Shown here: positions 24,073 to 57,292 of the stretch, piece by piece
How the letters are laid out: each line of letters begins with the position of its first letter
Position numbering within the stretch: position 1 is the stretch's first letter
NCBI GenBank assembly: GCA_951394045.1
Contig: OX595988.1
Location: forward strand, 3,549,352 to 3,613,351
DNA from: Nitzschia sp. DOCU1
Lineage: Eukaryota; Bacillariophyta; Bacillariophyceae; Bacillariales; Bacillariaceae
Length of the DNA: 64,000 nucleotides
Reading direction: 5' to 3'
Notes under the pieces: model-generated
The model's database searches: none
Told to the model about the DNA's origin: nothing
What the model saw: only the letters and a program-made list of their open reading frames with translations
Translations under genes and position numbers: made by a program

Positions 24073-25420
24073 TATTCTTTCTTCTTTGCTATGTTGCGCA
24101 GTTTATGATTGTAGTAAACCACTTGGGAGGATGGTGCGATAATGTGGCGGCTCCCCCCCCCCCCCCCGTTTCAGTTGCAGCCATCATCAGGCGACAAGGG
24201 GGCCTTCGCATCGACCTTGGGTTACCGGTAATATTTAGCGCAGTTCCAAGTATCGTCCCGAAAGTCGGCACTTTTACAACGATCGTAAATTCCAAGCGTC
24301 GTTCGCATTTTCTCCATCCGTCAATGATGGTGATGGTAATCGCGTGGTTCGCTTTCGTGTTGTTGCTACTACTAGTACTACATCTCAATCTTTGAACTAG
24401 CTAGAATAGAAACGTCCAAAGGGGGTGGGGCGTGCAACAACAACCATCAATAACATCCTCAAGAAGTAATAGTCGGCACTCCATAGCAAGAGCAACGATG
24501 TGATCTCGTATTTTGACTTTTTGCTTCAGTCGTAGGTATGAAGGCAGCATTAATGAGTGTCAACGCCATATGTTGAAGTGCGCATCATGCGCACTCCTCG
24601 GAGAGCTCGCGTTTCGCCAGAGCTCGTACCTAATAGATCGCGATATCCACAACCACAACCACACATCTAATCGATCCATCGACCATGGCCTCCCACTTTG
24701 GACGATCCTAAAGGCTCACTGCGACTAAATGAAACGCTTACCGCTCGCAGAATCATCTCTACAATCGTCTAAAGAATGTTACTTGCCCCAACGAAAGAGC
24801 AGGAAGACGGAGTGTGGTCGGCGATTCGAACGCCGGCACGTTGGCCTTCTCTCTGTGCTGTGCTGGAACGATGACGAGATCTTGCTGCCGCCAATAGCAA
24901 CAAACTTTGCACAAGCGGAACCACTGGATCGTGGTGGATCAAACTACAAAATGAAATGATGCATTTGATTGAGCTTACTTTGAAAATGGACGCAGCCTTG
25001 TCTCTAGGGTCGAAAGCATCACAAAGAACGCACTTTCAATGGCCTCTTGGATAGCAGTTCTGGTCATATGCCGCCAGAACTAGCAACCTCGAGTAACGCC
25101 GATATCGATTATTCAGACAATCCACGGTTGCGATATACGAACATAGAGACGGTGCGTTGTCTCGGAATCTCTGGTATTCCTTTGATAGGAGGGAAGAGGC
25201 GCCGAAAAGTTCTTTTCAATGGTGGTCGCTGTGGCAAAATTATCATTGTCGTTGCCAAGGATCCATGACCGCCGTAATATATCGGCGTTGCTATCGGCTA
25301 GCGAGAAGATAGTCTTATCAAGACGATTTCGTTGTTTCGGAATCTCTGGCACTTTTTTGATTGAACCCACTACCGGTAGTAGGAGAAGGAAGGATACAGA
25401 AAGGGTGACGCATGTCCTCC
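24073..25420. other. Intergenic region between the LRR genes, with poly-C tract
   Basis: It contains a C15 run at 24153-24167. The 5' flank of LRR-1 (about 24127-24245) resembles that of LRR-2 (about 29000-29110): GTGCGATAAT, GGCGGCTC, GCAGCCATCATC and TTTAGCGCA in the same order. About 24800-25090 is the duplicated 3' flank. No gene is supported. Confidence 0.6.
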
Positions 25421-28400
25421 TTAAAGTATTATTATATCTATATTGGTTTGGTTTTCCTCGCGGCACACTTCGCGTTGAATTCCAAGCACCTCGGAAACAT
25501 TCACTTGCAGACGTGACCATTCGAGCTCGTACTCCGAGGGGATGGGGCCTATCAAACAATTGGCCGAGAAGTTGACCATTGAAATGTTTCCCCAAGCCGC
25601 GAATGAGTCCGGTAGAGTACCAGTCAGAAAGTTGCCGTCAACGAGCGCACATTCAAGTGCTGACCACTGACTCCAAGCGTCAGGGAGTGTCCCAGTCAAA
25701 GCGTTTCCGCTAAGGTTCAAATCATTGATTGATGCCCACTGACTCCAAGACTCAGGGAGCGTGCCGGTAAGATAGTTGTCGGCAAGGTCAACACTATACA
25801 CGAGCGTCCAATTCCTCCACTCGTCCGGAAGTACCCCAGTCAAGGCGTTCCCACTAAGGTTGAAATCATGAATTTGACGCCACTGACTCCAAGACTCGGG
25901 AAGAATGCCGGTAAGATAGTTGTCGGCAAGGTCAACACTATACACACTATACCCGAGCGTCCAATTGCTCCACTCGTCCGGAAGTACCCCAGTCAAGGCG
26001 TTCCCACTAAGGTTGAAATCATGAATTTGACGCCACTGACTCCAAGACTCGGGAAGAATGCCGGTAAGATAGTTGTCGGCAAGGTCAACACTATACACAC
26101 TATACCCGAGCGTCCAATTGCTCCACTCGTCCGGAAGTACCCCAGTCAAGGCGTTCCCACTAAGGTTGAAATCATGAATTTCACGCCACTGACTCCAAGA
26201 CTCGGGAAGAATGCCGGTGAGATAGTTGTCGGCAAGGTCAACACTAGACACGAGCGTCCAATTGCTCCACTCGTGCGGAAGTGCCCCAGTCAAGGCATTC
26301 CCACTAATGTCCAATCTAAGGTAGTAAGTTTCTCTCCATTGACTCCAAGACTTGGGGAGTGTGCCGGTGAGATAGTTGTCTGCAAGGTCAACACGTCCCA
26401 TGAAGGTCCAATTGCTCCACTCGTCCGGAAGTGTCCCAGTCAAGGCATTCCCACAAAGGTTCAAAATATTGATAAAATCAACGATTGGTAAAGACTGACT
26501 CCAAGACCACTGACTCCAAGACTCAGGGAGCGTGCCGGTAAGATTGTTGTCGGCAAGGTCGACACCCTGCAAGTAGGTCCAATTACTCCACTCATGTGGG
26601 AGTGTCCCAGTCAAGGCATTTCCACTAAGGTCCAAGTCAAAAAAGACTAGTTGACTCCAAGACTCGGGCAGTGGGCCGGTAAGGTAATTGTCGGCAAGAT
26701 AAAGACTGTCGATGTAGGTCCAATTGTAGGTCCAATTGTACCACTCGTTTGGGAGTGTTCCGGTCAATTTATTCCCGCTGAGGTCTAAATTTAAGGATAT
26801 CCGTTGACTCCAAGATTCGGGGAGGGTACCAGTAAGATGGTTGTCACGCAGAAGCAAAAGATGAAGGTCTGCCCAATAGCTCCACCCGTCCGGGAGTGTC
26901 CCGGTCAATTCATTTCCCTCAAGGTTCAAGTCCCACAAGACTAGCTGACTCCAAGACTCCGGGAGCGTGCCGGTAAGCTTATTGTGGGCGAGGTCCACAG
27001 TTCCCAAGGAGAACCAATCGCTCCACACGTCCGGGAGTCTCCCCGTCAAAGCATTTCCACTCATGTACAAGGATTGCAAGCCCATCATTTCATTCCAAGC
27101 CTCGGGGAGTGTGCCAGTGAGATTGTTGTCGCGAAGGTCAATCGTCACCAGTAAGGTACAATTGCTCCACGCTGGCGGGAGTGTCCCGGTCAAGCGGTTC
27201 CCCGAAAGGTCCAACTGCGTCAAGTTCTTTGTCCAATGACTCCAAGAGTCAGGGAGAGTCCCTTTCAAGCCGTTTCCAGACAGATACAAGCCCGACAAAA
27301 CTGTCCATTTGTTCCAAGCGTCAGGGAGCGACCCTATGATCAAGCCATTGTCATTAATGGACAATACTGACAAGGTGGTCCATGCGCTCCAAGAAGCAGG
27401 AAGTGTGCCACTCAAATTATTACGAACACGCCCCCCACGATCAAGCCACACCTGTTCCATATTGGTCCAACGACTCCACGAATCCGGAAGCGTGCCTGTT
27501 AGGCTATTGGCCGCAAGGTCCAAATATTCCAAGTTTGTACAACGACTCCAATCGTCTGGGAGTGTCCCAGTCAGGGAATTCCAGCTCAAATCAACATATT
27601 CCAGCTTCGAAAGTTGGCCGATTTCATTTGGAAGGGTTCCATTCAACTGGTTCCCATCAACGACAAATGCGCGAAGTTGGGACATGGCTTGAAATAGCGA
27701 CCCCGGTATGGGGCCGGTCAATTCGTTCCAGTTCAACTGAAGATGAAGAAGATTAGTGAGCGATTTCAGCTCGGTCGGAATGGTCCCAATTAGGCTACAT
27801 TCGGAAAGAACTAATATGTCCAATCCACTTAGCTCAGCCAACCATGACGGTATTGGCGAAGGTTCAAACCAGTTCATCTCCAAAACCAGTTCTTTGAGGT
27901 CCGAAAGATATCTTAGAGAGCCTGGTATGGTATGCTGGAGGCTGTTTTGAGCGATGCGAAGGGATTGAATTCGCTCTTGCATATCACACTTTATTACACC
28001 GGCCGGAAGTGAAAAAACGTCGTAACCGTCCGAACCGTAATCCCAGTAAGGAATCGTCTGTTTCCACGTACATTCATGATCATTCGAAAGAAAGCGAAGC
28101 TGGTTTTCCCATTCTGGCCCATTGGTGGCAAAGTAGAAATGTGCCAGAACGAATCGTTGTACAATCCTCCATTCGGGAGTGTATGGGTCGTCCAGAATAC
28201 CACTCTTGTCTTCTATAGTGAGCCAATCATATGCCATTTGCTCGTAGCTTCCATCCTGCAATTCGTTTCCGATGATTGGCTGCAAAATTAGCCATGGGTC
28301 TTTTAGTTCTGGTACAGCGGTTGGTGAAGGAGTCTCTAGTCCGTTGTCATTCTCGTCTTCTTGAAGCACTAGTGGTAACGCAATGCCCAGCGTCAATCCA

Positions 28401-28906
28401 AGTAACGCAAAGGCAATCAGCCGACGAATAAACCGCCAAGCCCGAGCGTCGACTAGAGTTTCATTTTGGATCACAGTGGCTTCCACTGGTGTGGTTGCTT
28501 TTTGCTGTTGGTCGCTCACAAGATAGGCATCTACTTGTAGCTCTCCTTCAAGGAGTGTCGCTTGGTCCTCCTCGTCTACCGGAGGAGAACTCGCAGTCGT
28601 AGTACTTCCGCCTGCTAGCTGTCCTTCTACATCATCCTCATCGTTCCAATTCTCGCTGCCGGCAATCTCTTCGTCATCCGCAGGGATGTTTGTCGACTGA
28701 TTACTATTATTCGGAGCAGGCGAAGTCGTAGTAGTAGCTCCACCAGCAATCAATTGTCCTTGTTCCACGTCCTCGTTGGCTGGATTCTCCGCGCCAGGTG
28801 CCATCTCTGGCTCATCGTGGTCTCGAAGTGCTGTTACTCCTGCGGCCTGTTTGGAATGAACCGCATCATCTTTCTTTCCATATCTTTGCTTTCGTCGCCG
28901 TCCCAT
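25421..28906 (-). CDS. Transmembrane leucine-rich-repeat protein, LRR-2
   Basis: A 1161-residue paralogue of LRR-1. The disordered N-terminus is longer and itself duplicated: a DVEQGQLIAGGATTTTSP-like phrase occurs at about 46-63 and again at about 91-106. The motif EATVIQNETLVDA, shared with LRR-1, precedes a basic stretch and one membrane span at about 160-182. The ectodomain has roughly thirty or more LRRs with the WSQW/WSNW signature, alternating between LPESWSQW and LPDEWSNWT types, so every second repeat supplies an N-glycosylation sequon (Asn-Trp-Thr). Three almost identical 51-residue blocks occur late in the array. No kinase is present. A receptor, co-receptor or adhesion role at the cell surface is an inference. 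Confidence 0.85.
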   Translation of the reverse strand: MGRRRKQRYGKKDDAVHSKQAAGVTALRDHDEPEMAPGAENPANEDVEQGQLIAGGATTTTSPAPNNSNQSTNIPADDEEIAGSENWNDEDDVEGQLAGGSTTTASSPPVDEEDQATLLEGELQVDAYLVSDQQQKATTPVEATVIQNETLVDARAWRFIRRLIAFALLGLTLGIALPLVLQEDENDNGLETPSPTAVPELKDPWLILQPIIGNELQDGSYEQMAYDWLTIEDKSGILDDPYTPEWRIVQRFVLAHFYFATNGPEWENQLRFLSNDHECTWKQTIPYWDYGSDGYDVFSLPAGVIKCDMQERIQSLRIAQNSLQHTIPGSLRYLSDLKELVLEMNWFEPSPIPSWLAELSGLDILVLSECSLIGTIPTELKSLTNLLHLQLNWNELTGPIPGSLFQAMSQLRAFVVDGNQLNGTLPNEIGQLSKLEYVDLSWNSLTGTLPDDWSRCTNLEYLDLAANSLTGTLPDSWSRWTNMEQVWLDRGGRVRNNLSGTLPASWSAWTTLSVLSINDNGLIIGSLPDAWNKWTVLSGLYLSGNGLKGTLPDSWSHWTKNLTQLDLSGNRLTGTLPPAWSNCTLLVTIDLRDNNLTGTLPEAWNEMMGLQSLYMSGNALTGRLPDVWSDWFSLGTVDLAHNKLTGTLPESWSQLVLWDLNLEGNELTGTLPDGWSYWADLHLLLLRDNHLTGTLPESWSQRISLNLDLSGNKLTGTLPNEWYNWTYNWTYIDSLYLADNYLTGPLPESWSQLVFFDLDLSGNALTGTLPHEWSNWTYLQGVDLADNNLTGTLPESWSQWSWSQSLPIVDFINILNLCGNALTGTLPDEWSNWTFMGRVDLADNYLTGTLPKSWSQWRETYYLRLDISGNALTGALPHEWSNWTLVSSVDLADNYLTGILPESWSQWREIHDFNLSGNALTGVLPDEWSNWTLGYSVYSVDLADNYLTGILPESWSQWRQIHDFNLSGNALTGVLPDEWSNWTLGYSVYSVDLADNYLTGILPESWSQWRQIHDFNLSGNALTGVLPDEWRNWTLVYSVDLADNYLTGTLPESWSQWASINDLNLSGNALTGTLPDAWSQWSALECALVDGNFLTGTLPDSFAAWGNISMVNFSANCLIGPIPSEYELEWSRLQVNVSEVLGIQREVCREENQTNIDIIIL
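25821..26280 (-). repeat. 153-bp tandem repeat inside LRR-2
   Basis: The segment around ATGAATTTGACGCCACTGAC recurs at 25868, 26021 and 26174, exactly 153 bp apart. Each period encodes 51 residues, that is two LRRs plus a three-residue extension. Near identity indicates very recent expansion that preserves the reading frame. Confidence 0.9.
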
Positions 28907-29674
28907 TCTTCTTCTTTCTTCTTTGAGCTACTTAGAAAAGCTGCAATGAAGGCGTGTGGATGATTCTTTATCTTCTTTTTTTTTGAAGCAAGCAAGCATG
29001 CGATGATGATCTGAGTGCGATAATAGTGGCGGCTCTCTCTCGTTACGCTATCATGGGAGCAGCCATCATCCAGCGTCGGCCTTCGCTTTCGCCTTGGATT
29101 TCATAGCGCATCACTGGTATTATTTTATTGTCCATTCACAACATGTAAGATCCCATAATAAATAATGGCATCGTTCGCATTTTCTCCGTCCACTAAACCC
29201 GGTAAACTGCATGGTTCGGATTCTTTGCAGATGCCTCGCATGGTATCATCATCGATAGAGAGGATCCTTCTGGTAGCTACATAGAGAGAGAGAGAAGGGG
29301 ACGGGGCACCCACAAACAAAAACAACGCAACAACAAAACAACCACCAAACATGTGGTTGCCCGAAATCTGCCGCCGAATCTGGCGAGAACGTCTCTGCCT
29401 GCGACACATTACGAATAAGCCCCAAGAATTGTGAATATGTATGCAGGTGGTACAAAACGATTCAAACAACACGAACCATCGGCACGAACGTGCCCGTTCA
29501 TCTTCGGTTCATCTAACTACGAGTGGTGAACGGCTGACGTGTCGGAAGCAAGGCCCGCTCATGGCATTCAAATCCCGCGGACAGTATGACGACTCCATCG
29601 CCTTCCTTGCCTTCCGCCGGGCGTAGTGTCACGCTATCACGACAAACAGAGAGCGAGAAAATCTGCATGTGCGT
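28907..29674. other. Intergenic region upstream of LRR-2
   Basis: Contains the LRR-2 upstream region, a short GAGA-rich tract near 29284-29297 and no gene I can support. The left edge of unit B2 follows at 29675. Confidence 0.5.
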
Positions 29675-32514: not shown

Positions 32515-35500
32515 ATGATCATGAAGTATCAAGCCCCAACGGGGGGCAGTCAGCAGGATGATTGTTTGACTCAAAGCACTACTACTACTAATTCCAGCAC
32601 TGCCGCCTCCGGTCGTGGCGTCGGCCATACTCAAGCTGCTGCTGGAAAAGTGGTTTCTCGCAGCGACGAGGAGGGGGGAATGATGCTGGGGGTGTCACCA
32701 CCGGGTACGAACGAGGAGTCCTACTACTAGTAATAGTAGTATGAGCGAGTCTCCCCCGTTTCTTGTTGTTGGTGGCTTCTCCATCATCGCTAACCATACC
32801 TGCTTTTTTCTCTCTCGAACTCGAACTCGCTCCTCCCGGCCGCGCTCTTGTTTGTTGCTCTCTGTTCGCTCACCAGGTTCCCAAAACTGTGCTCCCACCA
32901 TCATGAAGTATCAAGCCCCAACGGGGGGCAGTCAGCAGGATGATTGTTTGACTCAAAGCACTACTACTACTAATTCCAGCACTGCCGCCTCCGGTCGTGG
33001 CGTCGGCCATACTCAAGCTGCTGCTGGAAAAGTGGTTTCTCGCAGCGACGAGGAGGGGGGAATGATGCTGGGGGTGTCACCACCGGGTACGAACGAGGAG
33101 TCCTACTACTAGTAATAGTAGTATGAGCGAGTCTCCCCCTTTCTTGTTGTTGGTGGCTTCTCCATCATCGCTAACCATACCTGCTTTTTTCTCTCTCGAA
33201 CTCGAACTCGCTCCTCCCGGCCGCGCTCTTGTTTGTTGCTCTCTGTTCGCTCACCAGGTTCCCAAAACTGTGCTCCCACCACCTTCCCAATGAAAGGTTG
33301 TGCTGTTATCCGCCGTGGATTGGTTCTTGCCACCAAGAAGCATTCGCCGATGGCTCTGTTGTTGTTGACGGTGGTGGTACTACTAGTAATAGTAACTGCC
33401 GCCGCCATTTGTGCTATCACCATCAAGGGGGTCAAGTTCAGCAAAATGAGTACTGCTGTAGCCCTACAAGGAGAACTGCCGGCAGTGCAAGTAGAACATG
33501 ACTCGTCAACGGATGGTACGTATTGCTCTTGGTTCTAAAATACGGCATCCAGATTTGGCATACCCCGCTCTTTCCGCTGGTGCACCAGTAAACGTTTTGT
33601 ATGTTACTCACGACACACTCATTTTGAAACATTCTTTTAAAAGCAGTTAGAGGAGCCGAAAAACTGACTGCTGGTGAGAGCCACCACCACTACAACCACG
33701 AAGGAAGTTCCGACGGCATCATGGACAAACCTCACAAGAACCTGATTGAAAAGTATGTGGCAGAGGACACAGGGATTGCTTCTTTTACTACTACTAGTAG
33801 TAGCTTGGCCGCGAGAGAGAAGGACATGCCGAGCACTAGTAGTAGTACTACTCGTGTCGAAAAACCTACCACTACTACCGAAAACATCCGAGCCAAGAAG
33901 AACGCGACTGGCGTCAGAGAACTCCAAGAAGCCGACGCACCAATCGACTGTGTACTTTCGCAAGAAACCCCGTTTGTCGTCACAACTCTCGTGAAGCTCA
34001 ATAGCCCCCAAGGCTTATGCGCGAGTACTGGTACGACCGCCGATGGTACATTCAGCAGCGTGTTCTTGAGCGAAAATGACAAGGAAATAATCTCGAATGT
34101 CATATTGACTTCCTTCACTTCCTTGGCAGAACAATATTGCGACCCGTACCATCGTAAGATCTCCAGCATCAACATCATCCGACAAGGCGTTTCTCCTTCT
34201 TCCCTGTTGCAGGAGGGCGCCAGCGGCTCCTCATCATTGACTTTGGAGATCGAGGTGATGGGTACTCTACGTTGCCAAGAAACGGAGTCGCTGGTGGGAC
34301 CATGCAATTCGACTAAAATTGGTCTGTTCGATTCTCTGGGACAAGTAGATCTTCAGCAACAGGAACCGACATGTTTGTGTCCCGTGTCAAATAGTACTAG
34401 CACGGTCGAATCCAACATTACTGCTACCATCGCAAGCAATCGGGGTCCAACTGAGGCTGAGTTTATGGATTACTTCGGTCTTCGCTTGGCGACGATTGCA
34501 CCCTCCTCTTCCCTAGACTGCCCCGATCTCCAAGTGGCTGATTGCGGTTTCGGTACCGTTTTCCAGTCGGCCTTGGCGGTCACCTTTGCCGACGCAGACG
34601 CAGCCAGAAACGCTAGTGATCTAATCGGATCAGAGGCACTGATGACTCTGAACTCTCTATACACTCCTGTTGACCCGACTGTTTGTTATCCCGAGTTTCG
34701 AGTCTTTGACTCAGTCAGCGTCGTGTTCCAAGAAGCTCGTCGACAGCTCCAAGTTATGCCGACTCCAAATGCATCTCCAGGGACAAACGTCTCGGTGCCG
34801 ACTGACCTTGTCAATGGTATTGGGAACGTCACATCAGCTCCATCATCCTCACCTTCTTCGCTTGATGGGGCCCCCATTCCTCAACCACTTACAGCGATCC
34901 TGTACATCGATGGAGTTTGTTCTCAATGTAGAAGTGACCTCTTCTTCCAAAACGACGTGAGCACAAGAAGACGTGCCCATGATGCACCAGCATTCCAGGA
35001 TACAGGACGAAGTCTGCAAGCTATCAGCGCCACCATCAAGTCCAACTGCTTCTGTCCCATCGACTCTGTGGTGGCCGAAGTGCCTGGCCCAGGGATCGAG
35101 GAGTTCGAAATTACAGAGATCCGACAAGTACACCCCGAGGAGATTGTCGTGCGGCCGGATAATAGCACTTTCGTCGACGACGGCGGCACTTATCGGTTCT
35201 CTTGCACCGACATTGGTACGACGTTCAGGAAAAACGTCACCCTGGAGTTGCAGGTCCTATGTGGCTCTGCTCCTGATTTATCGGATGAGGATAAAAACAA
35301 AATCGGCTTTGTTTACGTTAGTGCCTACAACAGCCGTCGAAGTACGGTGTGTGATCCGTTCAACTTGGAAGTGACCTCCGCCAAGGTTGTTGAAACAGGT
35401 GACTTGAGGGCAGGTGAATTGTCCAGCTTGCCGCTAAGGATCGAAGTGACAGTGATCTGCTACGGCTGCGATCCCCTTGCGACCGACGTCTACGGATTCC

Positions 35501-38391
35501 CTGAAATATTTCTGGAAGAGGAAACGACAGGAATCAACAACGAGACACGCAGGTACTTGTATTCGACCTACGAACTGAAGATGCGCCGTCTCCAGGGACG
35601 AGTGGGCGAAGCGACGTGTAGCTGTAACTCAACGCTACCACGGCGAGCTCCTTTGGAAGCTGATGTTACGGATGCTTTCGACCTTATCTCCGTTCAACAA
35701 CAAGATGTTCTCCCAGCATGCATTGGGAATGCAACAACGTGTGATTTTGGCAAGACTTTCACGACCAGTGCTCTATTCGAGGTCCAAGGTACCCTTGATC
35801 CCCTCGAAATAGCCTCGATCTTAGAGCAAGCCTTTACAAATGCGTTGGACAGCCTGATTGGCGGGGGGAACGCGACGGTTTGTAACTCTTTTTTTGGCCT
35901 TGTTACAGATGCCCAAGTATACCTCGACTTTGTCTACAACAGCGTGTTTAGGAACTCCAATGACACGGCGAGACGTCAACTCCAAGACCTCCTACCAACT
36001 GTGGCGCCCACATCCGATACCACCTTTACGTTCTGGTTGGCGTCTGGGGGCAATATCACCGCCACTCCTACCACGGCCCCAACGGTTCAAATAGTCAGTG
36101 CAACAGATTTTTTCCTGCTTAATGCATCTGGGCTATGCAACGGGTGTCCTGCGGAGCTGATTTTCAACAACGCAGCTGCGGATGGTCGCAGACGAATAGA
36201 CCAGATCAGTACCGAGGACACGATCAGTAGCACTTCCATTACTCAGTCTCGGTTCTTGGAAGACATCGCCGGGGAGGAACCAGAATCAGAGTGCTACTGC
36301 CCGATTGGGTCGGTTCAGGTTGTACCCGATTTCGAGCAGATTTCTCTCCTTGAAATCATCCAACAAGAGGTTGCCAAAATCAGCAGCAACCTTACAGTAA
36401 TAGGAACAGTGTCAGGGCTTACAAGAGTCGACTGCGTCGAAGAGACACCGTTCTCAACAACCATCGACTTCCGATTCTCAGCTTTCGAGTGGGTTGTCAA
36501 CAATCCAAATGACGTCCAAGGCCTTGGCGACGTGATAGCCAACATCTACAATGGCTTGGTGGAAGAGTTCTGTGACGAATACTTCCGTAACTCCATCTCT
36601 TTGACGTATGTCGCTGGGAGCTTGCAGCGGTCGACCGGAACAGGGCGACGGCACGACAGGGACCTGCAGAATATGCAAGGATGTCTGAATTACCATGCCA
36701 CATTCACTGTTTCGGGTCTTTGCCGGGGTTGCCAAGCCCTTGGAACACCCATCCCGCTGTTCGGTAATAGCACCACCAATCGAAAGCTTGAGGAACTCGT
36801 CCTGCGACAACTTACGCAGATATCAAGGTATCGCCGTATCCAAGAAGCCGGATCAACATGTATATGCGACAGTACGTCTGTTGCTCAGCGAACTTCTCCA
36901 AGCCGAGCGGCAATCCGAGCTGGCTTGGAAGCATTGATTCCAGATCAATTGCCATGGGCACAAAACCCGTCCATATGCGGACTCCCTGTTGATGTAGAGA
37001 TACCTTGCCCAACAATTCCGGCTGGTCCCTCCACCACAATTTCCATGCGATTCTACGCCCGTCGCTCGGATGGCAGTTGCTTAAAAGCCGCAGATTTGCT
37101 GCTCATGGCCACGCAGTTCTCGACTACGTTCAACTCTAATATGCAGCTGGGACACTTCCCATGTGAGCCACAATACCTTCAAGTCTCCAATGTCATGATC
37201 GACCCTTTAACCCTTGGTGGTTGCCGTCGCGAATTGCTGAGAGGCAGCAAGATTGACGACAGCGAAACCCAAAGTGGAAAAACGTCCAGAGAGCTCCTCC
37301 GGGACTATGACGGCGTACTGGCGTCCATGACGGTCACTGGTAACATTTATGCGATCAATGTAGATGCCATTCTAGCCAGCCAAAGCACTACTCTGCGAAC
37401 TGCAGCTTCCAGTATCACGGAGACAAGCGGGGGACTTTACGACATTGAAACTGGAAGTGCCACCAAGACTCCCAGCGCCGTGCCATCCGCCTTTCCAAGT
37501 TCGTTTCCGAGTTCGTTTCCAAGTGATTTTCCTACGTCAAAACCGTCTGAGGATTCATGCTTGCCTACTTCGAAATCTTGCACTGGAATATTATCAGTTG
37601 TCGAAACTTGGTGCACCTCATTCGAAGGTACTAATGATGCCTGCTGCTCTCTGGGTGATGTGTGTCGTTGGACTGGGGAAGCCACAATTTTCAGGGGATC
37701 GTGTAATGGCCTCGCTGCTTGCTGGTTTCCAGACACATCGACATCCATCACTGTTGGTGCCAAATCCTGCAATGGATCAGAAGCGTGCCGAACGATTGGT
37801 GTCGCTACTGCCACGTCCATTTCCATCGGCTCAAACTCATGCAATGGAAGCAGCGCGTGCGGTTCCGTTGGTCGAAATGCAGGCGAGACCATATCTATTG
37901 GCGATGGCTCTTGCAACGGATTTGTTTCGTGCTCCTATTTAGGCGGCAACCTGGCCACATCCGTTACTATCGGGGATGGCTCGTGCAACGAACAATTTGC
38001 GTGCATTGACCTTGGTTACACCGAGGCCACCGCCGTCACTATTGCGAGTGGGTCGTGTGCCGGTCAGTATTCGTGCAACCAAGTTGGCCGTGACAAGGCT
38101 ACTACCGTTATTATTGGCGCCAGTTCCTGCCTTGGAGATAATTCGTGCAGATTTGTTGGCGGTATTCTGGCCACCACCGTTATTATTGGTGCCAGTTCCT
38201 GCCGTGGAGACTATGCGTGCAGTAATGTTGGTTCTTCCTCTTCAACTTCGGTGACAATTAAGAAATCGACTTGCACCGCCACGGCTTGCGGTAACACCGA
38301 CCCTCTTTGTGGGGGTTCCTTCTTTGGTCTTTATGGAAACCTTGCCGGTGACGTGACTTGCGGCGGCTGCGAATGTTTATCTTCCAGGTAG
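32515..38391 (+). CDS. Cys-rich modular surface protein with C-terminal solenoid, copy 2
   Basis: The inferred exons are 32515-32704, a duplicated exon 32877-33086, 33258-33515 and 33647-38391. All junctions are GT-AG in phase 1 and the sum, 5403 nt, gives 1800 residues; use of the second exon alone from the ATG at 32903 gives 1728. Domain order is a Ser/Thr-rich cytoplasmic tail, one span (MALLLLTVVVLLVIV region), then about six repeats of a module with F..(N/D)..YN.L....CD..FR-like positions ending in RRQLQ, alternating with Cys-x2-Cys ... Cys-x-Cys modules. An SSFPSSFPSDFP stalk follows, then seven solenoid units of the type T-S-V-T-I-G-x-x-S-C-x-G-x-x-A-C, and a Cys-rich cap. Many Asn-x-Ser/Thr sequons fit an extracellular location. 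Compared with copies 1 and 3, it lacks 30 nt in frame near 35109. I do not recognise a named family. Confidence 0.8.
32519..33282 (+). repeat. 382-bp tandem duplication of exon 1 and intron 1
   Basis: TCATGAAGTATCAAGCCCCA occurs at 32519 and again at 32901, and the two 382-bp units are almost identical. The second unit carries an intact intron-1 acceptor before it and a donor inside it. It therefore forms an internal exon, 32877-33086, whose length (210 nt) and phase (1-1) keep the frame. Confidence 0.9.
37480..38390 (+). repeat. Stalk and solenoid repeat array of copy 2
   Basis: The SSFP repeats at about 37490-37535 are followed by repeats of about 72 bp from 37680. Counting units that begin T-(S/T)-x-(T/S/I)-(V/I)-G gives seven before the terminal TSVTIKKSTC unit. 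The equivalent arrays are at 13300-14257 in copy 1 (eight units) and 43735-44573 in copy 3 (six units). Confidence 0.85.
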
Positions 38392-38820: not shown

Positions 38821-41800
38821 ATTGAATCCAAGCTACGACTACCTACCGGCAATCACTTTGTTACCCGTGGAACAAACGGACGAAGATCGTTCCGAATAGA
38901 GAGGGCATTTCGACCGGACGAATGACGTTTTTGGCGTGAAAAAGAAATTACCTGGTACGCGTCTTGCTCGTCGGCCTCAATGGCAGCAGAACTTTCGCCA
39001 CGTTTTGTAGGTGCTGCTCCGGCATTTACCACCGCAACATGTCCTTTTGCTATTGTCGGCATCAGAAGCAAAAGGGTCGCTTTTCAAGAACGCCGACACA
39101 GATAAAAGAATATGATCATGAAGTATCAAGCCCCAACGGGGGGCAGTCAGCAGGATGATTGTTTGACTCAAAGCACTACTACTACTAATTCCAGCACTGC
39201 CGCCTCCGGTCGTGGCGTCGGCCATACTCAAGCTGCTGCTGGAAAAGTGGTTTCTCGCAGCGACGAGGAGGGGGGAATGATGCTGGGGGTGTCACCACCG
39301 GGTACGAACGAGGAGTCCTACTACTAGTAATAGTAGTATGAGCGAGTCTCCCCCTTTCTTGTTGTTGGTGGCTTCTCCATCATCGCTAACCATACCTGCT
39401 TTTTTCTCTCTCGAACTCGAACTCGCTCCTCCCGGCCGCGCTCTTGTTTGTTGCTCTCTGTTCGCTCACCAGGTTCCCAAAACTGTGCTCCCACCACCTT
39501 CCCAATGAAAGGTTGTGCTGTTATCCGCCGTGGATTGGTTCTTGCCACCAAGAAGCATTCGCCGATGGCTCTGTTGTTGTTGACGGTGGTGGTACTACTA
39601 GTAATAGTAACTGCCGCCGCCATTTGTGCTATCACCATCAAGGGGGTCAAGTTCAGCAAAATGAGTACTGCTGTAGCCCTACAAGAAGAACTGCCGGCAG
39701 TGCAAGTAGAACATGACTCGTCAACGGATGGTACGTATTGCTCTTGGTTCTAAAATACGGCATCCAGATTTGGCATACCCCGCTCTTTCCGCTGGTGCAC
39801 CAGTAAACGTTTTGTATGTTACTCACGACACACTCATTTTGAAACATTCTTTTAAAAGCAGTTAGAGGAGCCGAAAAACTGACTGCTGGTGAGAGCCACC
39901 ACCACTACAACCACGAAGGAAGTTCCGACGGCATCATGGACAAACCTCACAAGAACCTGATTGAAAAGTATGTGGCAGAGGACACAGGGATTGCTTCTTT
40001 TACTACTACTAGTAGTAGCTTGGCCGCGAGAGAGAAGGACATGCCGAGCACTAGTAGTAGTACTACTCGTGTCGAAAAACCTACCACTACTACCGAAAAC
40101 ATCCGAGCCAAGAAGAACGCGACTGGCGTCAGAGAACTCCAAGAAGCCGACGCACCAATCGACTGTGTACTTTCGCAAGAAACCCCGTTTGTCGTCACAA
40201 CTCTCGTGAAGCTCAATAGCCCCCAAGGCTTATGCGCGAGTACTGGTACGACCGCCGATGGTACATTCAGCAGCGTGTTCTTGAGCGAAAATGACAAGGA
40301 AATAATCTCGAATGTCATATTGACTTCCTTCACTTCCTTGGCAGAACAATATTGCGACCCATACCATCGTAAGATCTCCAGCATCAACATCATCCGACAA
40401 GGCGATTCTCCTTCTTCCCTGTTGCAGGAGGGCGCCAGCGGCTCCTCATCATTGACTTTGGAGATCGAGGTGATGGGTACTCTACGTTGCCAAGAATCGG
40501 AGTTGCTGGTGGGACCATGCAATTCGACTAAAATTGGTCTGTTCGATTCTCTGGGACAAGTAGGTCTTCAGCAACAGGAACCGACATGTTTGTGTCCCGT
40601 GTCAAATAGTACTAGCACGGTCGAATCCAACATTACTGCTACCATCGCAAGCAATCGGGGTCCGACTGAGGCTGAGTTTATGGATTACTTCGGTCTTCGC
40701 TTGGCGACGATTGCACCCTCCTCTTCCCTAGACTGCCCCGATCTCCAAGTGGCTGATTGCGGTTTCGGTACCGTTTTCCAGTCGGCCTTGGCGGTCACCT
40801 TTGCCGACGCAGACGCAGCCAGAAACGCTAGTGATCTAATCGGATCAGAGGCACTGATGACTCTGAACTCTCTATACACTCCTGTTGACCCGACTGTTTG
40901 TTATCCCGAGTTTCGAGTCTTTGACTCAGTCAGCGTCGTGTTCCAAGAAGCTCGTCGACAGCTCCAAGTTATGCCGACTCCAAATGCATCTCCAGGGACA
41001 AACGTCTCGGTGCCGACTGACCTTGTCAATGGTATTGGGAACGTCACATCAGCTCCATCATCCTCACCTTCTTCGCTTGATGGGGCCCCCATTCCTCAAC
41101 CACTTACAGCGATCCTGTACATCGACGGAGTTTGTTCTCAATGTAGAAGTGACCTCTTCTTCCAAAACGACGTGAGCACAAGAAGACGTGCCCATGATGC
41201 ACCAGCATTCCAGGATACAGGACGAAGTCTGCAAGCTATCAGCGCCACCATCAAGTCCAACTGCTTCTGTCCCATCGACTCTGTGGTGGCCGAAGTGCCT
41301 GGCCCAGGGATCGAGGAGTTCGAAACGACGCTGGCCGAGCGACTCCAGCTCGAGATTACAGAGATCCGACAAGTAGACCCCGAGGAGATTGTCGTGCGGC
41401 CGGATAATAGCACTTTCGTCGACGACGGCGGCACTTATCGGTTCTCTTGCACCGACATTGGTACGACGTTCAGGAAAAACGTCACCCTGGAGTTGCAGGT
41501 CCTATGTGGCTCTGCTCCTGATTTATCGGATGAGGATAAAAACAAAATCGGCTTTGTTTACGTTAGCGCCTACAACAGCCGTCGAAGTACGGTGTGTGAT
41601 CCGTTCAACTTGGAAGTGACCTCCGCCAAGGTTGTTGAAACAGGTGACTTGAGGGCAGGTGAATTGTCCAGCTTGCCGCTAAGGATCGAAGTGACAGTGA
41701 TCTGCTACGGCTGCGATCCCCTTGCGACCGACGTCTACGGATTCCCTGAAGTATTTCTGGAAGAGGAAACGACAGGAATCAACAACGAGACACGCAGGTA

Positions 41801-44764
41801 CTTGTATTCGACCTACGAACTGAAGATGCGCCGTCTCCAGGGACGAGTGGGCGAAGCGACGTGTAGCTGTAACTCAACGCTACCACGGCGAGCTCCTTTG
41901 GAAGCTGATGTTACGGATGCTTTCGACCTTATCTCCGTTCAACAACAAGATGTTCTCCCAGCATGCATTGGGAATGCAACAACGTGTGATTTTGGCAAGA
42001 CTTTCACGACCAGTGCTCTATTCGAGGTCCAAGGTACCCTTGATCCCCTCGAAATAGCCTCGATCTTAGAGCAAGCCTTTACAAATGCGTTGGACAGCCT
42101 GATTGGCGGGGGGAACGCGACGGTTTGTAACTCTTTTTTTGGCCTTGTTACAGATGCCCAAGTATACCTCGACTTTGTCTACAACAGCGTGTTTAGGAAC
42201 TCCAATGACACGGCGAGACGTCAACTCCAAGACCTCCTACCAACTGTGGCGCCCACATCCGATACCACCTTTACGTTCTGGTTGGCGTCTGGGGGCAATA
42301 TCACCGCCACTCCTACCACGGCCCCAACGGTTCAAATAGTCAGTGCAACAGATTTTTTCCTGCTTAATGCATCTGGGCTATGCAACGGGTGTCCTGCGGA
42401 GCTGATTTTCAACAACGCAGCTGCGGATGGTCGCAGACGAATAGACCAGATCAGTACCGAGGACACGATCAGTAGCACTTCCATTACTCAGTCTCGGTTC
42501 TTGGAAGACATCGCCGGGGAGGAACCAGAATCAGAGTGCTACTGCCCGATTGGGTCGGTTCAGGTTGTACCCGATTTCGAGCAGATTTCTCTCCTTGAAA
42601 TCATCCAACAAGAGGTTGCCAAAATCAGCAGCAACCTTACAGTAATAGGAACAGTGTCAGGGCTTACAAGAGTCGACTGCGTCGAAGAGACACCGTTCTC
42701 AACAACCATCGACTTCCGATTCTCAGCTTTCGAGTGGGTTGTCAACAATCCAAATGACGTCCAAGGCCTTGGCGACGTGATAGCCAACATCTACAATGGC
42801 TTGGTGGAAGAGTTCTGTGACGAATACTTCCGTAACTCCATCTCTTTGACGTATGTCGCTGGGAGCTTGCAGCGGTCGACCGGAACAGGGCGACGGCACG
42901 ACAGGGACCTGCAGAATATGCAAGGATGTCTGAATTACCATGCCACATTCACTGTTTCGGGTCTTTGCCGGGGTTGCCAAGCCCTTGGAACACCCATCCC
43001 GCTGTTCGGTAATAGCACCACCAATCGAAAGCTTGAGGAACTCGTCCTGCGACAACTTACGCAGATATCAAGGTATCGCCGTATCCAAGAAGCCGGATCA
43101 ACATGTATATGCGACAGTACGTCTGTTGCTCAGCGAACTTCTCCAAGCCGAGCGGCAATCCGAGCTGGCTTGGAAGCATTGATTCCAGATCAATTGCCAT
43201 GGGCACAAAACCCGTCCATATGCGGACTCCCTGTTGATGTAGAGATACCTTGCCCAACAATTCCGGCTGGTCCCTCCATCACAATTTCCATGCGATTCTA
43301 CGCCCGTCGCTCGGATGGCAGTTGCTTAAAAGCCGCAGATTTGCTGCTCATGGCCACGCAGTTCTCGACTACGTTCAACTCTAATATGCAGCTGGGACAC
43401 TTCCCATGTGAACCACAATACCTTCAAGTCTCCAATGTCATGATCGACCCTTTAACCCTTGGTGGTTGCCGTCGCGAATTGCTGAGAGGCAGCAAGATTG
43501 ACGACAGCGAAACCCAAAGTGGAAAAACGTCCAGAGAGCTCCTCCGGGACTATGACGGCGTACTGGCGTCCATGACGGTCACTGGTAACATTTATGCGAT
43601 CAATGTAGATGCCATTCTAGCCAGCCAAAGCACTACTCTGCGAACTGCAGCTTCCGGTATCACGGAGACAAGCGGGGGACTTTACGACATTGAAACTGGA
43701 AGTGCCACCAAGACTCCCAGCGCCGTGCCATCCGCCTTTCCGAGTTCGTTTCCGAGTTCGTTTCCAAGTGATTTTCCTACCTCAAAACCGTCTGAGGATT
43801 CATGCTTGCCTACTTCGAAATCTTGCACTGGAATAGTATCAGTTGTCGAAACTTGGTGCACCTCATTCGAAGGTACTAATGATGCATGCTGCTCTCGGGG
43901 TGATGAACTGGGTGATGAATTTGTTCCATGTCGTTGGACTGGGGAAGCCACAATTTTCAGGGGATCGTGTAATGGCGACGCTGCTTGCTGGTTTCCAGAC
44001 ACATCGACATCCACCACTGTTGGTGCCAAATCCTGCAATGGACCAAACGCGTGCCAAGGGATTGGTTTCGCTACTGCCACGTCCATTTCCATCCGCTCAA
44101 ACTCATGCAATGAAGACAACGCGTGCGCTTTCCTTGGTCGAAATGCAGGCGAGACCATATCTATTGGCGATGGCTCTTGCAACGGATTTATTTCGTGCAC
44201 CAATATAGGCCGCAACCTGGCCACATCCGTTACTATCGGGGATGGCTCGTGCAACGAACAATATGCGTGCGAGGCCCTTGGTTACACCGAGGCCACCGCC
44301 GTCACTATTGCGAGTGGGTCGTGTGCCGGTCAGTTTTCGTGCGGCGGAGTTGGCGCTAGTCTGGCCACCACCGTTATTATTGGCGCCAGTTCCTGCCTTG
44401 GAGACAATGCGTGCATTTTTGTTGGTTATTCCCCTTCAACTTCGGTGACAATTAAGAAATCGACTTGCACCGCCACGGCTTGCGGTAACACCGACCCTCT
44501 TTGTGGTTTTCTTTATGACGCCTTGACCGGTGACGTGACTTGCGGCGGCTGCGAATGTTTATCTTCCAGGTAGATAACGAGTTGAATTGGCAAAGCCAGT
44601 TCAACATCATACATGTTACAATATGAATGAATGACTTTACATCAACGACTTTAGCATTGTCTTTTTGTGCGGTTCATTGTCAAGGCCATGAAGACAATGT
44701 GCGTCATGCCACCTTTGCTGATGTTGAAATACCTGCAACTCTTCCTGCTTCGACTAACTCGAAA
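38821..44764 (+). repeat. Segmental duplication unit B, copy 3 (partial)
   Basis: Begins within the promoter block (GAATC.AAGCTACGACTACCT, compare 8388 onward) and covers the whole Cys-rich gene and its 3' flank, but lacks the FVPK gene. It is arranged head to tail behind unit B2. Confidence 0.9.
39112..44573 (+). CDS. Cys-rich modular surface protein with C-terminal solenoid, copy 3
   Basis: The inferred exons are 39112-39301, 39473-39730 and 39862-44573, joined in phase 1; 5160 nt give 1719 residues. The membrane span is at about 95-119, and the ectodomain starts at about 150. The modules match copy 2, including the 30 nt that copy 2 lacks. The solenoid has six units. A small in-frame insertion (GDELGDEFVPC in place of GDVC) lies just before the solenoid. 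Nucleotide identity to copy 2 is very high outside the solenoid, whereas inside it the codons after SC-x-G and after the second Cys differ repeatedly. This is the cleanest, apparently fully intact member. Its cellular role is unknown; type II topology and glycosylation sequons suggest a surface protein. Confidence 0.82.
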
Positions 44765-44839
44765 ACGTGGACGACTAGTCCGACAGCAGGTCTTTCTCGT
44801 AATAGCGTTGTGAATTTACCGAGCTACACGGTAGCAAAT

Positions 44840-45335
44840 TCATTCTGTAATTCGTCCAATAAAAAAGTGAGATTGTTTAGCTACTCTATCGGTCCTATCG
44901 ATCACCTTTAATCTTGGATGTACTAGTCCCAATCGAACATGCCAAGATCAGTCCAAGAGTGGTCATCACGATCAAACTCCAAGTACCCACTCGTCTTAGC
45001 TCACAGTAAACTCTACTTACACGGTAGCAAATTTGTTCTGTAATTCGTCCACAATAAAAATGAGATTGTTTAGCTACTCTATCGGTCCTATCGATCACCT
45101 TTGATCTTGGATGTAAAGTCCCAATCGAACATGCCAAGATCAGTCCAAGAGTGGTCATCACGATCAAACTCCAAGTACCCACTCGTCTTAGCTCACAGTA
45201 AACTCTACTTACACGGTAGCAAATTTGTTCTGTAATTCGTCCACAATAAAAATGAGATTGTTTAGCTACTCTATCGGTCCCATCGATCACCTTTGATCTT
45301 GGATCTACTAGTCCCAATCGAACTTGCCAAGATCA
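44840..45335. repeat. 192-bp tandem repeat, about 2.5 copies
   Basis: GATTGTTTAGCTACTCTATC occurs at 44871, 45064 and 45256. The period is 192-193 bp and the units are almost identical. Because 192 is divisible by three, a 140-codon minus-strand frame (44895-45317) stays open through it with a 64-residue repeat; I treat that ORF as a by-product. Confidence 0.9.
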
Positions 45336-45587
45336 GTCCAAGAAGACGAGTCATCACGATCAATCTCCAAGTACTCGTGTGCAGTCTCTTCGTTGCTGAA
45401 AATTTCAATCCGTCTTGTCTCCAAGGGTCTTAGACATAGGTCCCAATGTCGACTCCATAGTATCATCGGCCGGCACCATTTCGGCGGTCATGGGAGTCAG
45501 CTTCGGCTCGGGACAGGTTGAATCCCGGATTATGAGCTAGGTTATGAGCTGGCAACACCATTCGACTGATTCTTGACATGTTGATAG

Positions 45588-49121: not shown

Positions 49122-50204
49122 TTACAAAATCATCATCATTACCATCATTCCTGCCATCATTCCCATGACTACTCCACTTCTTTCAACAGCAGCTCCACTC
49201 CCATCTTTATTATCTTTTCGCTTGTTGTCACATCCTTTAAAATTTCCATAATTGCATCGATCTTGATCATAGTTTGGATCACCAATCCAATCATCATCCG
49301 GACGTGGGACAAAAAGTGGTGGTCGGACTTGGGATTCATTAAAGGGCTCGCCCGGAATGACGGGACCTTCCCCCACCCTTAAAACGCATTCATATTCGGC
49401 CGGTGTCGGAATAAAGGTCCCATCGGGACTGAGAAATTGACCACCCGGTGGAACATTTTTGGGAGTAAATCTCTCGACTGGAACTTGAGGGTCCAAATCC
49501 CGATCCAAAGCCGTATAAGTTAAACCCCCATCGGTCCCCGAACTCCAAATATACGATTGAATGACGATCCGATTAAAGTAGGTTTCTGTATCGTACGCAA
49601 TGGTACGAAAATCCGAGAAACCGACAAACCAGTCTGGGGAAGGAGTCATTTTGACCATGCTGGACAAAAAAGGATGTTCAAAGGTGACGTTAATGGGTGG
49701 CAAGTGTTGACTGTCCGAGGTGTTGAACATGCGTTCTCCAATAATCAACATGAGAGTTTCAAATCCCGCATTATTGAATTCATTGGTAATAATGGTAGCA
49801 AAGCCTTCCTGTAGAATGTACGAGATTTAGATGCAGAAAGTGTGTATGAGTGAGTGACGTGCGATTAGACAAGGTAGCACCGTCAACATGTGACTTACTT
49901 CTGCAATGGATTCGACTCCCAGTGTCGCCGTTTCGGTTCCGGTCCACATGCGATATCCATTGGAATGCGAAATCAATATGGGAGCACTCCAACTGGGCGA
50001 TCGAGGAAAATCGTTGGGATGACGTTGTTTGTTCCATTTGCCACGAAAGGTACAATAATATCTTAGAGCGCCTTCAAACCGTTGATTGACTGTCCCGTAT
50101 TCAAACTCCAAGACTTTGTAAGTTTGTTCACGACGTTGACCGGGGGGTTCATTGAATTGAGCCGAAACGCAACACCATAAACACAATAACGAAAGGAATC
50201 GCAT
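49122..50204 (-). CDS. Spondin N-terminal-domain protein, probably GPI-anchored
   Basis: Two exons: 50204-49899 and 49808-49122, with a 90-bp GT-AG intron in phase 0, giving 330 residues. MRFLSLLCLWCCVSAQ is a signal peptide. The spondin_N domain spans about residues 40-200: YYCTFRGKWNKQRHPNDFP, then SHSNGYRMW, and after the intron HPFLSSMVKMTPSPDWFVG and the GTDGGLTY segment. The latter match the family's W-x-x-x-x-HP, SPDWFVG and DAGTDSGL-type blocks, which bind divalent metal. After an acidic, Cys-poor linker, the chain ends in a hydrophobic Met/Val-rich tail following small residues, typical of a GPI-attachment signal. Spondin domains act in extracellular matrix and adhesion in animals; the algal role is unknown. 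A (TTTC)n tract at about 50206-50227 lies directly upstream of the ATG. Confidence 0.8.
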
Positions 50205-55303: not shown

Positions 55304-57292
55304 TAGATTTATCATCTATCTATTCATCGAACTTTTGGCTTCGTTTTTGTGTTCTCACACAAAAAGTTACTTAGCCCCACCGCTACGTCAAAGCAGTTCG
55401 ATTTCGGAGGGGGTGGGCCACAGCTGCTCCGCCCGGTAGAGACAACAATCCGCTTCACTCGACGGCGTAGAACCGATTCCAATTCTCGGCTCCGACGACA
55501 GCCATTTGGACTCGTAATCCTCCTCCGATATTTGTTGTGGACCCCCAAACAGTTTTGCCACCGTACCCCGACCTTGTGTCACCAAATTGCGAGTAGTGAA
55601 ATCTCGGGAAATCGCATTGCATCCCCTCGGCTGCCTCCAAGAGGGCATATGCATTTACTTAAAGGGAAATTGATCTTGAGTGATTTTGATTACCTCGACT
55701 GCTTACACATAAATTTATAGTGAAATCACGGCGGGCGACCATCTTCCCTCTATTACAATCTAACTTTGCTTACCCTTTCTGGCAAGGTCGCTCTTTACAA
55801 TATTGTATATTATATTGACTTTGACTCTAGTTTAAATTTTCATGGTCTCCTTTTGATCACAGAGTGAGTTAGCGTCATCTAAAAAACGAACTCACGATAG
55901 ACCGCGTGGCCGACCATTTTTCCCATGGGTCGAATAGGGCATTGAAAAAGGGCTACTAAGTTTCTAACTACCTATTGTAATTTGACAAAAACTTTACAAG
56001 CGTCTTCAAATTAACCATAGCTTGCCGTTTACAGCTTGGGTGTGATTGTAGCATCCAGCTGGACAGCGATCGGCCCACTTCTCTATCTTGCTATCTTTCT
56101 GAAGTAGTCCGTCTAGTCGACGAGCGATTGACGTCAGCGTCCCACCCTGAAGAGCCTGGATTTGTAAGGCATATCAATCGTGTTTAACAAACAGTGTCAA
56201 ATGTTTTCTAGCTTATGCCCTTGCCTCAGAAACTGGCGGATGATGAATGTGGATTACTTTCAGCGACCGTGGGGCTTCATCGTGGGAAAAATCACGAAAC
56301 TGCTCGCAAACCACAGCAGAAACCGCTCGGATCTCAGCATTCCTTCCAACAAATCCGTCACTTTTTCACTCAATCGACCTCACTTTTTTGCGAAGGGAGC
56401 AATCTGCATCGTTCCTTTCTTCATCGTTGCCATGAACTTCATGGCGACGATGATCAGCTTTCTTCATCAACTTTCTTTTCACTCTGCTATGAACAGACCT
56501 CTACTGCGGCGATCACTATCATTTTGATGGTGCGGCTCAGCTGTAGCGAGATAACAGCCTGAAGGAGGAGAAATCCACGGTGAAGGTCCAGTTTGTGCCG
56601 GACCGCCCTGGAACACTCGTCCTGAAGGAAGCCAATATTGGGGGTGTACGTGGACTCAGTCTCTGGAGAGCCCTCCTGATTCGGTTGAACCATGACGCTA
56701 GCTCCCTGAGGCAAACGGAGCCGAAGCAGACCCTGGAAGAAAGTTGTTGGATGAAATGTTTGATTGTTGTGTTGGTGTTGGCGGAGGAATGATTCATGTG
56801 GTGGCGCCCTTCGGAACGGTGCACTCCAAACTTGCGTTTTTGCGACTTGACGGTGCCGTTTGATCATATTTCTTTCCCGCAGTGCTACTCACCTTGTTCT
56901 TTCCTCCTTTTGCAGGCGTCTGGCGTTGTTCTACAACGAAACCAACTTTTTCCAGAGCAACGATCCTGGTCCCTGATCTCGACCCCGATTCCAATTCTCC
57001 CCGCACACAAACAGCCTGATCAACGCAACCGGTTTGTGGTTCCGGTTTTAAAACGTCCTCCACTCGCGTACGTGTCTCGTCGCGGAGAGTTTAAGTGTAA
57101 CCTGTGCTGGTGCGTGGAGAATTGGAAATGCCGTGGAGTGAAGTGGATTGTTGTCTCTACCGGGCGGAGCAGCTGTGGCCCACCCCCTCCGAAATCGAAC
57201 TGCTTTGACGTAGCGGTGGGGCTCAGTAACTTTTTGTGTGAGAACACAAAAACGAAGCCAAAAGTTCGATGAATAGATAGATGATAAATCTA
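55304..57292. mobile_element. Element of about 2 kb with 163-bp terminal inverted repeats
   Basis: The left arm 55304-55466 and right arm 57130-57292 are reverse complements with few mismatches, starting TAGATTTATCATCTATCTAT and ending at ACAACAATCC.CTTCACTC.ACGGC. A diverged solo copy lies at 1982-2080. The interior has short ORFs on both strands (for example 56180-56527 plus and 56487-56867 minus), none with a recognised transposase motif, so it is probably non-autonomous. No clear target-site duplication is seen. Confidence 0.7.

Follow-up and report, generated by a model that had tools for sequence, protein, structure and literature searches.

Fixed sets of diversified codons within otherwise conserved repeats have been described in a few eukaryotic families. 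In Podospora, the WD40 repeats of HET-D/HET-E contain four codons per repeat that are under diversifying selection, according to the excerpted text of the report (PMC1805685), and the repeats of fungal NLR proteins with high internal conservation are defined, in the excerpt cited, by an identity above 85% along 100 residues or more (PMC4986451). In stramenopiles, the brown-algal ROCO-LRR candidate immune receptors are built on a 72-base unit with four positively selected positions per repeat, again as stated in part of the source (PMC11378527). Finally, the 90-bp-exon LRR genes of Tetrahymena, as presented in the excerpt cited, are an example of a large and young solenoid family of a unicellular eukaryote with a possible role in recognition (PMC6564038).

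The DNA analysed here (the window) is a stretch of 64,000 nucleotides from the diatom Nitzschia sp. DOCU1, which contains three related genes, all on the forward strand: copy A (approx. 9.1-14.3 kb), copy B (33.3-38.4 kb) and copy C (39.5-44.6 kb). By taking into account what the cited excerpts say of the fungal NLRs, the arrays of 24-codon units of this trio resemble them in having few selected positions per repeat, a variable number of repeats and a conserved frame, and in that broken members keep their repeats open. However, the fungal repeats are of the WD40, ANK or TPR type and are shuffled within and between genes, whereas the trio has Cys solenoid units that are ordered and changed in place. 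Furthermore, fungal NLRs have a NOD domain, none of which was detected in the long exon of copy B (no NACHT or NB-ARC match in a Pfam scan), a predicted surface stalk being present instead, and the trio arrays fall short of the fungal repeat definition, their longest near-identical run being 207 bases (69 codons) with 91% matches, at 13909-14115, where copy A carries recent 72-base duplicates. With the brown-algal ROCO-LRR proteins, as far as the excerpt describes them, the trio shares the stramenopile lineage, the 72-base unit and the small number of selected positions, but there every LRR is encoded by a separate exon and the exons are shuffled and alternatively spliced, whereas the trio array lies in a single exon (in B and in C within one open frame). 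The ROC-COR GTPase is also a point of difference, with no Pfam match to ROC or COR in the long exon of B or in the second piece of A, and the selected sites, which occupy the concave strand face in the brown-algal proteins, are off the predicted strand in the trio. The likeness to Tetrahymena is limited in turn, since in the cited part of that study Ka/Ks is mostly purifying, expansion is by exon arrays and most of the proteins are without a transmembrane segment.

The gene organization, as inferred from the sequence, is best followed in copy B. Exon 1 (33290-33515; open frame MKGCAVIRRG...) encodes a basic N-terminus followed by a hydrophobic stretch (hydropathy peak 3.12, residues 23-41). 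Such a stretch is found in exon 1 of A, B and C, in each case after approximately 20 residues, several of which are basic, and is predicted to act either as a type II signal anchor or as a signal peptide. A GT-AG intron (33516-33646) leads in frame into exon 2 (33647-38391, 1587 codons before the stop). The latter comprises a stalk of about six divergent Cys-containing domains by our segmentation and alignment (33940-37452), without a Pfam match in the Pfam scan, a Pro/Ser linker with 12-base repeats (37453-37560), the array of eight units of 24 codons, each with six variable positions and belonging to DUF7640 (37678-38253), and a C-terminal Cys cap with the stop codon (38254-38391). In copy A, exon 1 (9076-9301) is followed by an exon 2 (9433-14257) that, by comparison with B, is broken by the loss of 13 bases and by an in-frame TAG in the stalk, while the frame of its nine-unit array (13490-14137) is still open. 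Within this array, unit U3 (13706-13777) has been swapped as a block for another unit type. Copy C consists of exon 1 (39505-39730) and exon 2 (39862-44573, open for 1576 codons before the stop) with a seven-unit array (43944-44447) and a 7-residue insertion ahead of it. The assignment of the array to an 'exon 3' in the initial annotation is corrected, two exons being read rather than three, with the array in the long second one. The loop of the Cys cap, located at approx. 38308-38361 in B and at the equivalent place, ahead of the stop codon, in A and C (CGYFDFTGDVTC, CGGSFFGLYGNLAGDVTC, CGFLYDALTGDVTC), differs between copies in both length and sequence, whereas the array units are constant in length.

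Several other features are found in the window. Copy A is flanked by two copies of a TMEM43-like gene (3553-5538 and 16629-18635), 97.6% identical over 1792 bases, and two ordinary LRR genes (LRR_1/LRR_8; 21415-24102 and 25421-28927, minus strand), both with internal repeat expansion, lie between A and B. A direct duplication of 383 bases (32518-32900 and 32900-33281, 99.7% identical) is located upstream of B and reaches its exon 1, and a 192-base tandem repeat (2.8 copies, 44825-45374) is directly 3' of copy C. Further along, a gene for a Spondin_N domain protein (49122-49826, minus strand, E 8.6e-15) and an inverted pair of 163 bases (55304-55466 and 57130-57292, 98% identical) are observed.

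When A, B and C are compared along their length, the gene body (4.5 kb) shows 0-5 differences per 200-base window and the region just past the stop, in the 3' UTR, 0-3 per 184-200 bases, while up to 40 differences per 200 bases are reached in the array windows. The proposal that differences concentrate in the C-terminal repeats is thus borne out, with far fewer substitutions in the rest of the exon. The raw codons of the first full unit also confirm the reported readings RY-AC-QA, SE-AC-RT and PN-AC-QG (CGA TAC gcg tgc CAA GCG, TCA GAA gcg tgc CGA ACG and CCA AAC gcg tgc CAA GGG, respectively). Seven homologous units, with U6 lacking a partner in C, provide 19 copy-pair comparisons per unit position, the first unit and both caps being left out of the counts. 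At positions 10, 11, 14, 15, 18 and 19, 85 of 114 codon comparisons are amino-acid-changing and one is silent only, and 43 of the 114 codon pairs differ by two or three bases, in agreement with the initial observation that nearly all changes alter the amino acid and that several codons differ at more than one base. At the other 18 positions the figures are 25 amino-acid-changing and 10 silent in 342 comparisons (Fisher p for variable versus other positions, 1.6e-13 for B/C, 2.0e-15 for A/B and 5.2e-14 for A/C, by treating codon pairs as independent, which is not entirely true). When all 24 register shifts were scored, the true register came first in both pairs tried (B/C, 25 with the next at 20; A/B, 21 with the next at 14). 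Copy A, though broken, accounts for 5/30 changes as A-only ones, against 5 for C and 3 for B. The near identity of the copies over approximately 4 kb holds for the body but somewhat overstates the youth of the array, since for B/C silent divergence is higher in the array than in the body (about 4/110 versus 5/929, p 0.01).

Calculations with the NG86 method yielded, for the body, dS values of 0.005-0.014 and dN values of 0.003-0.006 (omega, about 0.4-0.5), and, for the variable positions, dN values of 0.59-0.79 with the replaced unit of A left out. Relative to the pooled array dS, omega at the variable sites was 12.2 for B/C (p 8e-12) and 8.1 for A/B (p 1.6e-9) with the automatic alignment, and about 15 for B/C with the hand alignment, so that dN/dS at these sites is far above 1. 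For the strict tests, U3 of A and U6 were excluded.

The third bases of the variable codons act as a tracer of how these changes arose. Between non-homologous units, the free third base differs in 256 of 419 cases in which base 1 or 2 differs, indicating that third bases at variable positions are not themselves under constraint. When homologous units are compared, the free third base differs in only 2 of 55 such cases (p 9e-18 for the comparison; 7/65 when U3 of A and the two-copy U6 are added). Thus, the codons changed in situ, through point changes that altered the amino acid. Import of codons as cassettes was considered and discarded, because imported units would carry their own third bases. 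A direct count in the trio gave a silent rate of 2/82 at variable codons (95% interval, 0.3-8.5%) and of 8/284 at frame codons, with first and second bases of the variable codons differing at 91/192. The automatic alignment gave 8/107 and 13/384 silent thirds at variable and frame codons, respectively, and NG86 path counting led to a higher dS at variable codons (about 5/59 versus 8/233 in the trio without U3 of A, and 3.9/11 versus 5/39 in the paralog pair L035/L039). A modest rise of the mutation rate at the variable codons may therefore be compatible with the automatic and NG86 silent counts; a rise matching the 47% change of first and second bases is excluded. Third-position changes in the trio comprise nine altering, five mixed and two silent ones against an opportunity of 29.5 altering to 56.8 silent (pooled p 0.0017), the altering to silent ratios by pair being 2:1 for B/C (p 0.28), 4:0 for A/B (p 0.012) and 3:1 for A/C (p 0.12).

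The pattern extends beyond the trio. The genome searched (52 Mb in 63 contigs, the window being on contig C4) shows its diatom origin in 18 matches to the silicon transporter family (best E 8e-181). With the array as the query, it gave 71 matches at E <= 1e-5, which we grouped into about three dozen arrays. From 34 array frames, 230 units (225 distinct) were obtained after dropping the window's own copies (L001-L003 and L015) and ten overlapping or duplicate loci (L013, L014, L016, L018, L021, L023, L026, L027, L028 and L037). In these units S6, C7, A12 and C13 look fixed partly since the unit-search pattern required them, and the six variable positions are occupied by Tyr (12.5%), Ser (10.9%), Asn and Asp (9.6% each) among other residues. 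In six other paralog pairs (L043 occurring in two of them), changes were counted in 113 of 200 comparisons at the six variable positions, as against 83 of 588 at the remaining ones; the comparison of L011 with L019 and L032 (30/54 versus 20/162) was kept out of this sum because it is not independent of L019/L032. Silent thirds in the six pairs amount to 14/153 at variable and 88/560 at frame codons, so that by this count the silent rate is not raised. Among protein relatives from other sources, two of 66 pairs exceeded both 150 aligned residues and 60% identity, and these behave similarly (variable versus other positions, 14/60 versus 6/120 for P0006/P0008 and 11/42 versus 3/84 for P0010/P0011), with position 10 invariant in both. 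In each turn, amino acid change at the six positions far outpaces silent change, with a register that is shared by the trio, other paralog pairs and outside relatives. As a separate observation, L036 and L037, approximately 20 kb apart on contig C16, are 100% identical over 9130 bases, stalk and array included. This pair is due either to a very recent duplication or to duplication in the assembly, and its heads show no fresh change.

Relaxed constraint, with the six positions simply free to drift, would account for the very many residue types found there, and finds some room in the body omega well below 1 and in the other paralog pairs. In the latter, omega is significant in two of six (3.2, p 0.0018, and 4.3, p 0.0009), the values of 1.6, 2.0, 1.1 and 1.6 of the remaining four being indistinguishable from 1. 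Drift, however, gives omega up to about 1, and the dN at the variable positions of the trio is 8- to 12-fold the pooled array dS, which refutes this explanation for the trio and makes it extremely improbable as a whole.

A targeted mutational process that rewrites the variable codons, such as DGR-like templated mutagenesis, deaminase hypermutation or another mutator, might be suspected from the presence of up to three base changes per codon against a nearly identical background, from the A-richness of the variable first and second positions (second base A in 46% across the 230 units) and from the somewhat raised NG86 dS at variable codons. However, the A-rich second base can be traced to the preference for Tyr, Asn and Asp, and 14 of 49 variable first- and second-base columns of the trio are without A, although this is weak evidence. 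A code-blind mutator hits silent and non-silent bases alike, and thus fits poorly with third bases that stay unmoved in changed codons and with a silent rate that, by direct count, is not above that of frame codons in the trio or in the other pairs. A DGR would also need a template copy, and the best array match outside the trio has no more than 64% protein identity. By taking these data together we regard a targeted process as very improbable, and the conclusion that selection rather than such a process made the trio pattern is well supported. Of the diversified binding face put forward in the initial annotation, diversifying selection in a fixed register is upheld by the omega values and the third bases, while the face itself is something that we infer.

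A further possibility is that the arrays are old and divergent, and that gene conversion between the tandem copies homogenised their flanks and the unit frame. The excess of silent divergence in the B/C array is in line with it, and U3 of copy A demonstrates that blocks do move. Stalk domain 5 (36424-36873 in B) has 55 matches in the genome, 26 of them 73-100% identical (three within one frame), while arrays outside the trio are 36-64% identical to the trio array at the protein level, a contrast that speaks for diversified heads on a conserved stalk. What does favour old arrays is a subfamily on contig C10 (L046, L047 and L048), which combines the same stalk with an unrelated C-terminal head of approximately 160-190 residues, for which the Pfam scan of the three heads gave nothing above a cut-off. 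Its stalks have dS values of 0.08-0.09 (omega 0.22-0.31) and its heads dS values of 0.45-0.88 (omega 0.70-1.05), indicating that heads are exchangeable or have been kept apart while the stalks are young or homogenised. For this reason, the C10 subfamily was rejected as a second case of fast positions, its heads being old or exchanged on a young or homogenised stalk, and is not counted as support. The silently older B/C array makes some stalk homogenisation likely in the trio too, and this may explain part of the contrast between body and array, but not the variable codons, since a conversion tract cannot reset the third base and spare the first two of the same codon. Old arrays with homogenised flanks are therefore considered an improbable source of the pattern. 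Six equal-scoring copies of the stalk domain (53% identity, E 1.1e-39) were also noted at C1:29522, C6:34061, C6:55319, C9:2471430, C9:2494814 and C11:179789, several of them no further than about 80 kb from the end of a contig; two were read in part (L049 and L050).

As to the nature of the array, the DUF7640 profile (PF24646) scored 50.1 bits with the long exon of B and 61.6 bits with the second piece of A (curated cut-off, 28.1 bits), and found 51 matches in the genome. The array is predicted to form a solenoid (model pLDDT about 78-92 over residues 81-220), in which the beta-strand would span unit positions 23-2, leaving all six variable positions outside the strand. A Foldseek comparison of this model with BspA-type LRR proteins (PDB 4fd0 and 4fdw) gave an E value of 1.7; the arrays differ from these bacterial surface proteins in sharing only 5-6% identity with them and in that a profile search of the whole genome with LRR_5 (PF13306) gave no match. 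Among the Pfam matches of the long exon of B and of the second piece of A there was no LRR family at E <= 1. None of the 40 matches at E <= 10 in a viral structure library reached E <= 0.001, and a sequence search of the PDB with the array profile returned only three acetyltransferase sequences (E 0.07-0.08). With a mean pLDDT of 55.6, the stalk-domain model did not lend itself to a search for similar folds. In protein searches, one array as the query gave one match and the three-copy profile 12, whose names include an MMETSP transcript, the diatom Craspedostauros australis and a Chloroflexota MAG; the DUF7640 protein named after the latter (P0013) might be explained by lateral transfer, by a family of wider distribution or by an error in binning. 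In open-access PMC full text, the family is undescribed among the matches listed and DUF7640 appears in none of them, though the family may still be published.

The predicted architecture is that of a signal anchor followed by a conserved multi-domain stalk, a Pro/Ser linker and a Cys solenoid of 24-residue turns, and on the basis of the predicted anchor the proteins are probably located at the cell surface. The residue composition, the fixed register, this predicted location and the existence of a repertoire suggest that the six positions make contacts in a head for recognition or adhesion. We favour, with some reserve, the view that these are long surface or secreted diatom proteins with diversified solenoid heads that would recognise something that is variable or that has to be told apart. 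In the trio, the pattern was produced by point mutations of the usual kind, on which very strong diversifying selection at the protein level then acted, and gain and loss of units and occasional block replacement add length and combinations. The six positions may form the contact surface, so that each gene would have its own specificity on a common stalk. Less favourable to this view are the omega values of 1.1-2.0 in four of the other paralog pairs, the number of A-only changes in the broken copy A and the unchanged heads of L036/L037. The most likely ligand would be non-self at the cell surface, namely a virus, a bacterium, or a chytrid or oomycete parasite; mates or self may be envisaged with less likelihood.

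Selection may be real and yet act on residues that are themselves hidden targets, such as the attachment site of a virus or parasite, or on a lineage-specific adhesive. The lack of a known signalling domain in the long exon (Pfam scan) agrees with such a role, long-stalked predicted surface proteins would suit adhesion as well, and in Seminavis robusta a link has been drawn, in the cited part of the study, between families expanded in tandem and bacterial recognition, motility and adhesion (PMC7335047). On the other hand, a common stalk that bears a different head in each of dozens of genes would suit a repertoire better than a single hidden target, an argument that is not decisive, and we consider a target or adhesive role rather unlikely. 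Returning to recognition by diversified heads, a more specific version can be proposed tentatively, at somewhat less than even chances: a germline repertoire resembling a set of antennae, in which a single conserved stalk would carry dozens of heads, of the Cys solenoid type and of one or more unrelated types. An arms race, or else the need to tell self from non-self, would keep these heads diverse, and the variable face of the solenoid would be off the strand used by known LRR receptors.

To our knowledge, how single-celled algae distinguish viruses, parasites, bacteria and mates is largely open. The silent third bases inside fast-changing codons offer a simple test that separates selection, targeted mutation and gene conversion in recent duplicates, and the present analysis provides named genes and residues for testing, in which the likely contact residues evolve approximately ten times faster than silent DNA.
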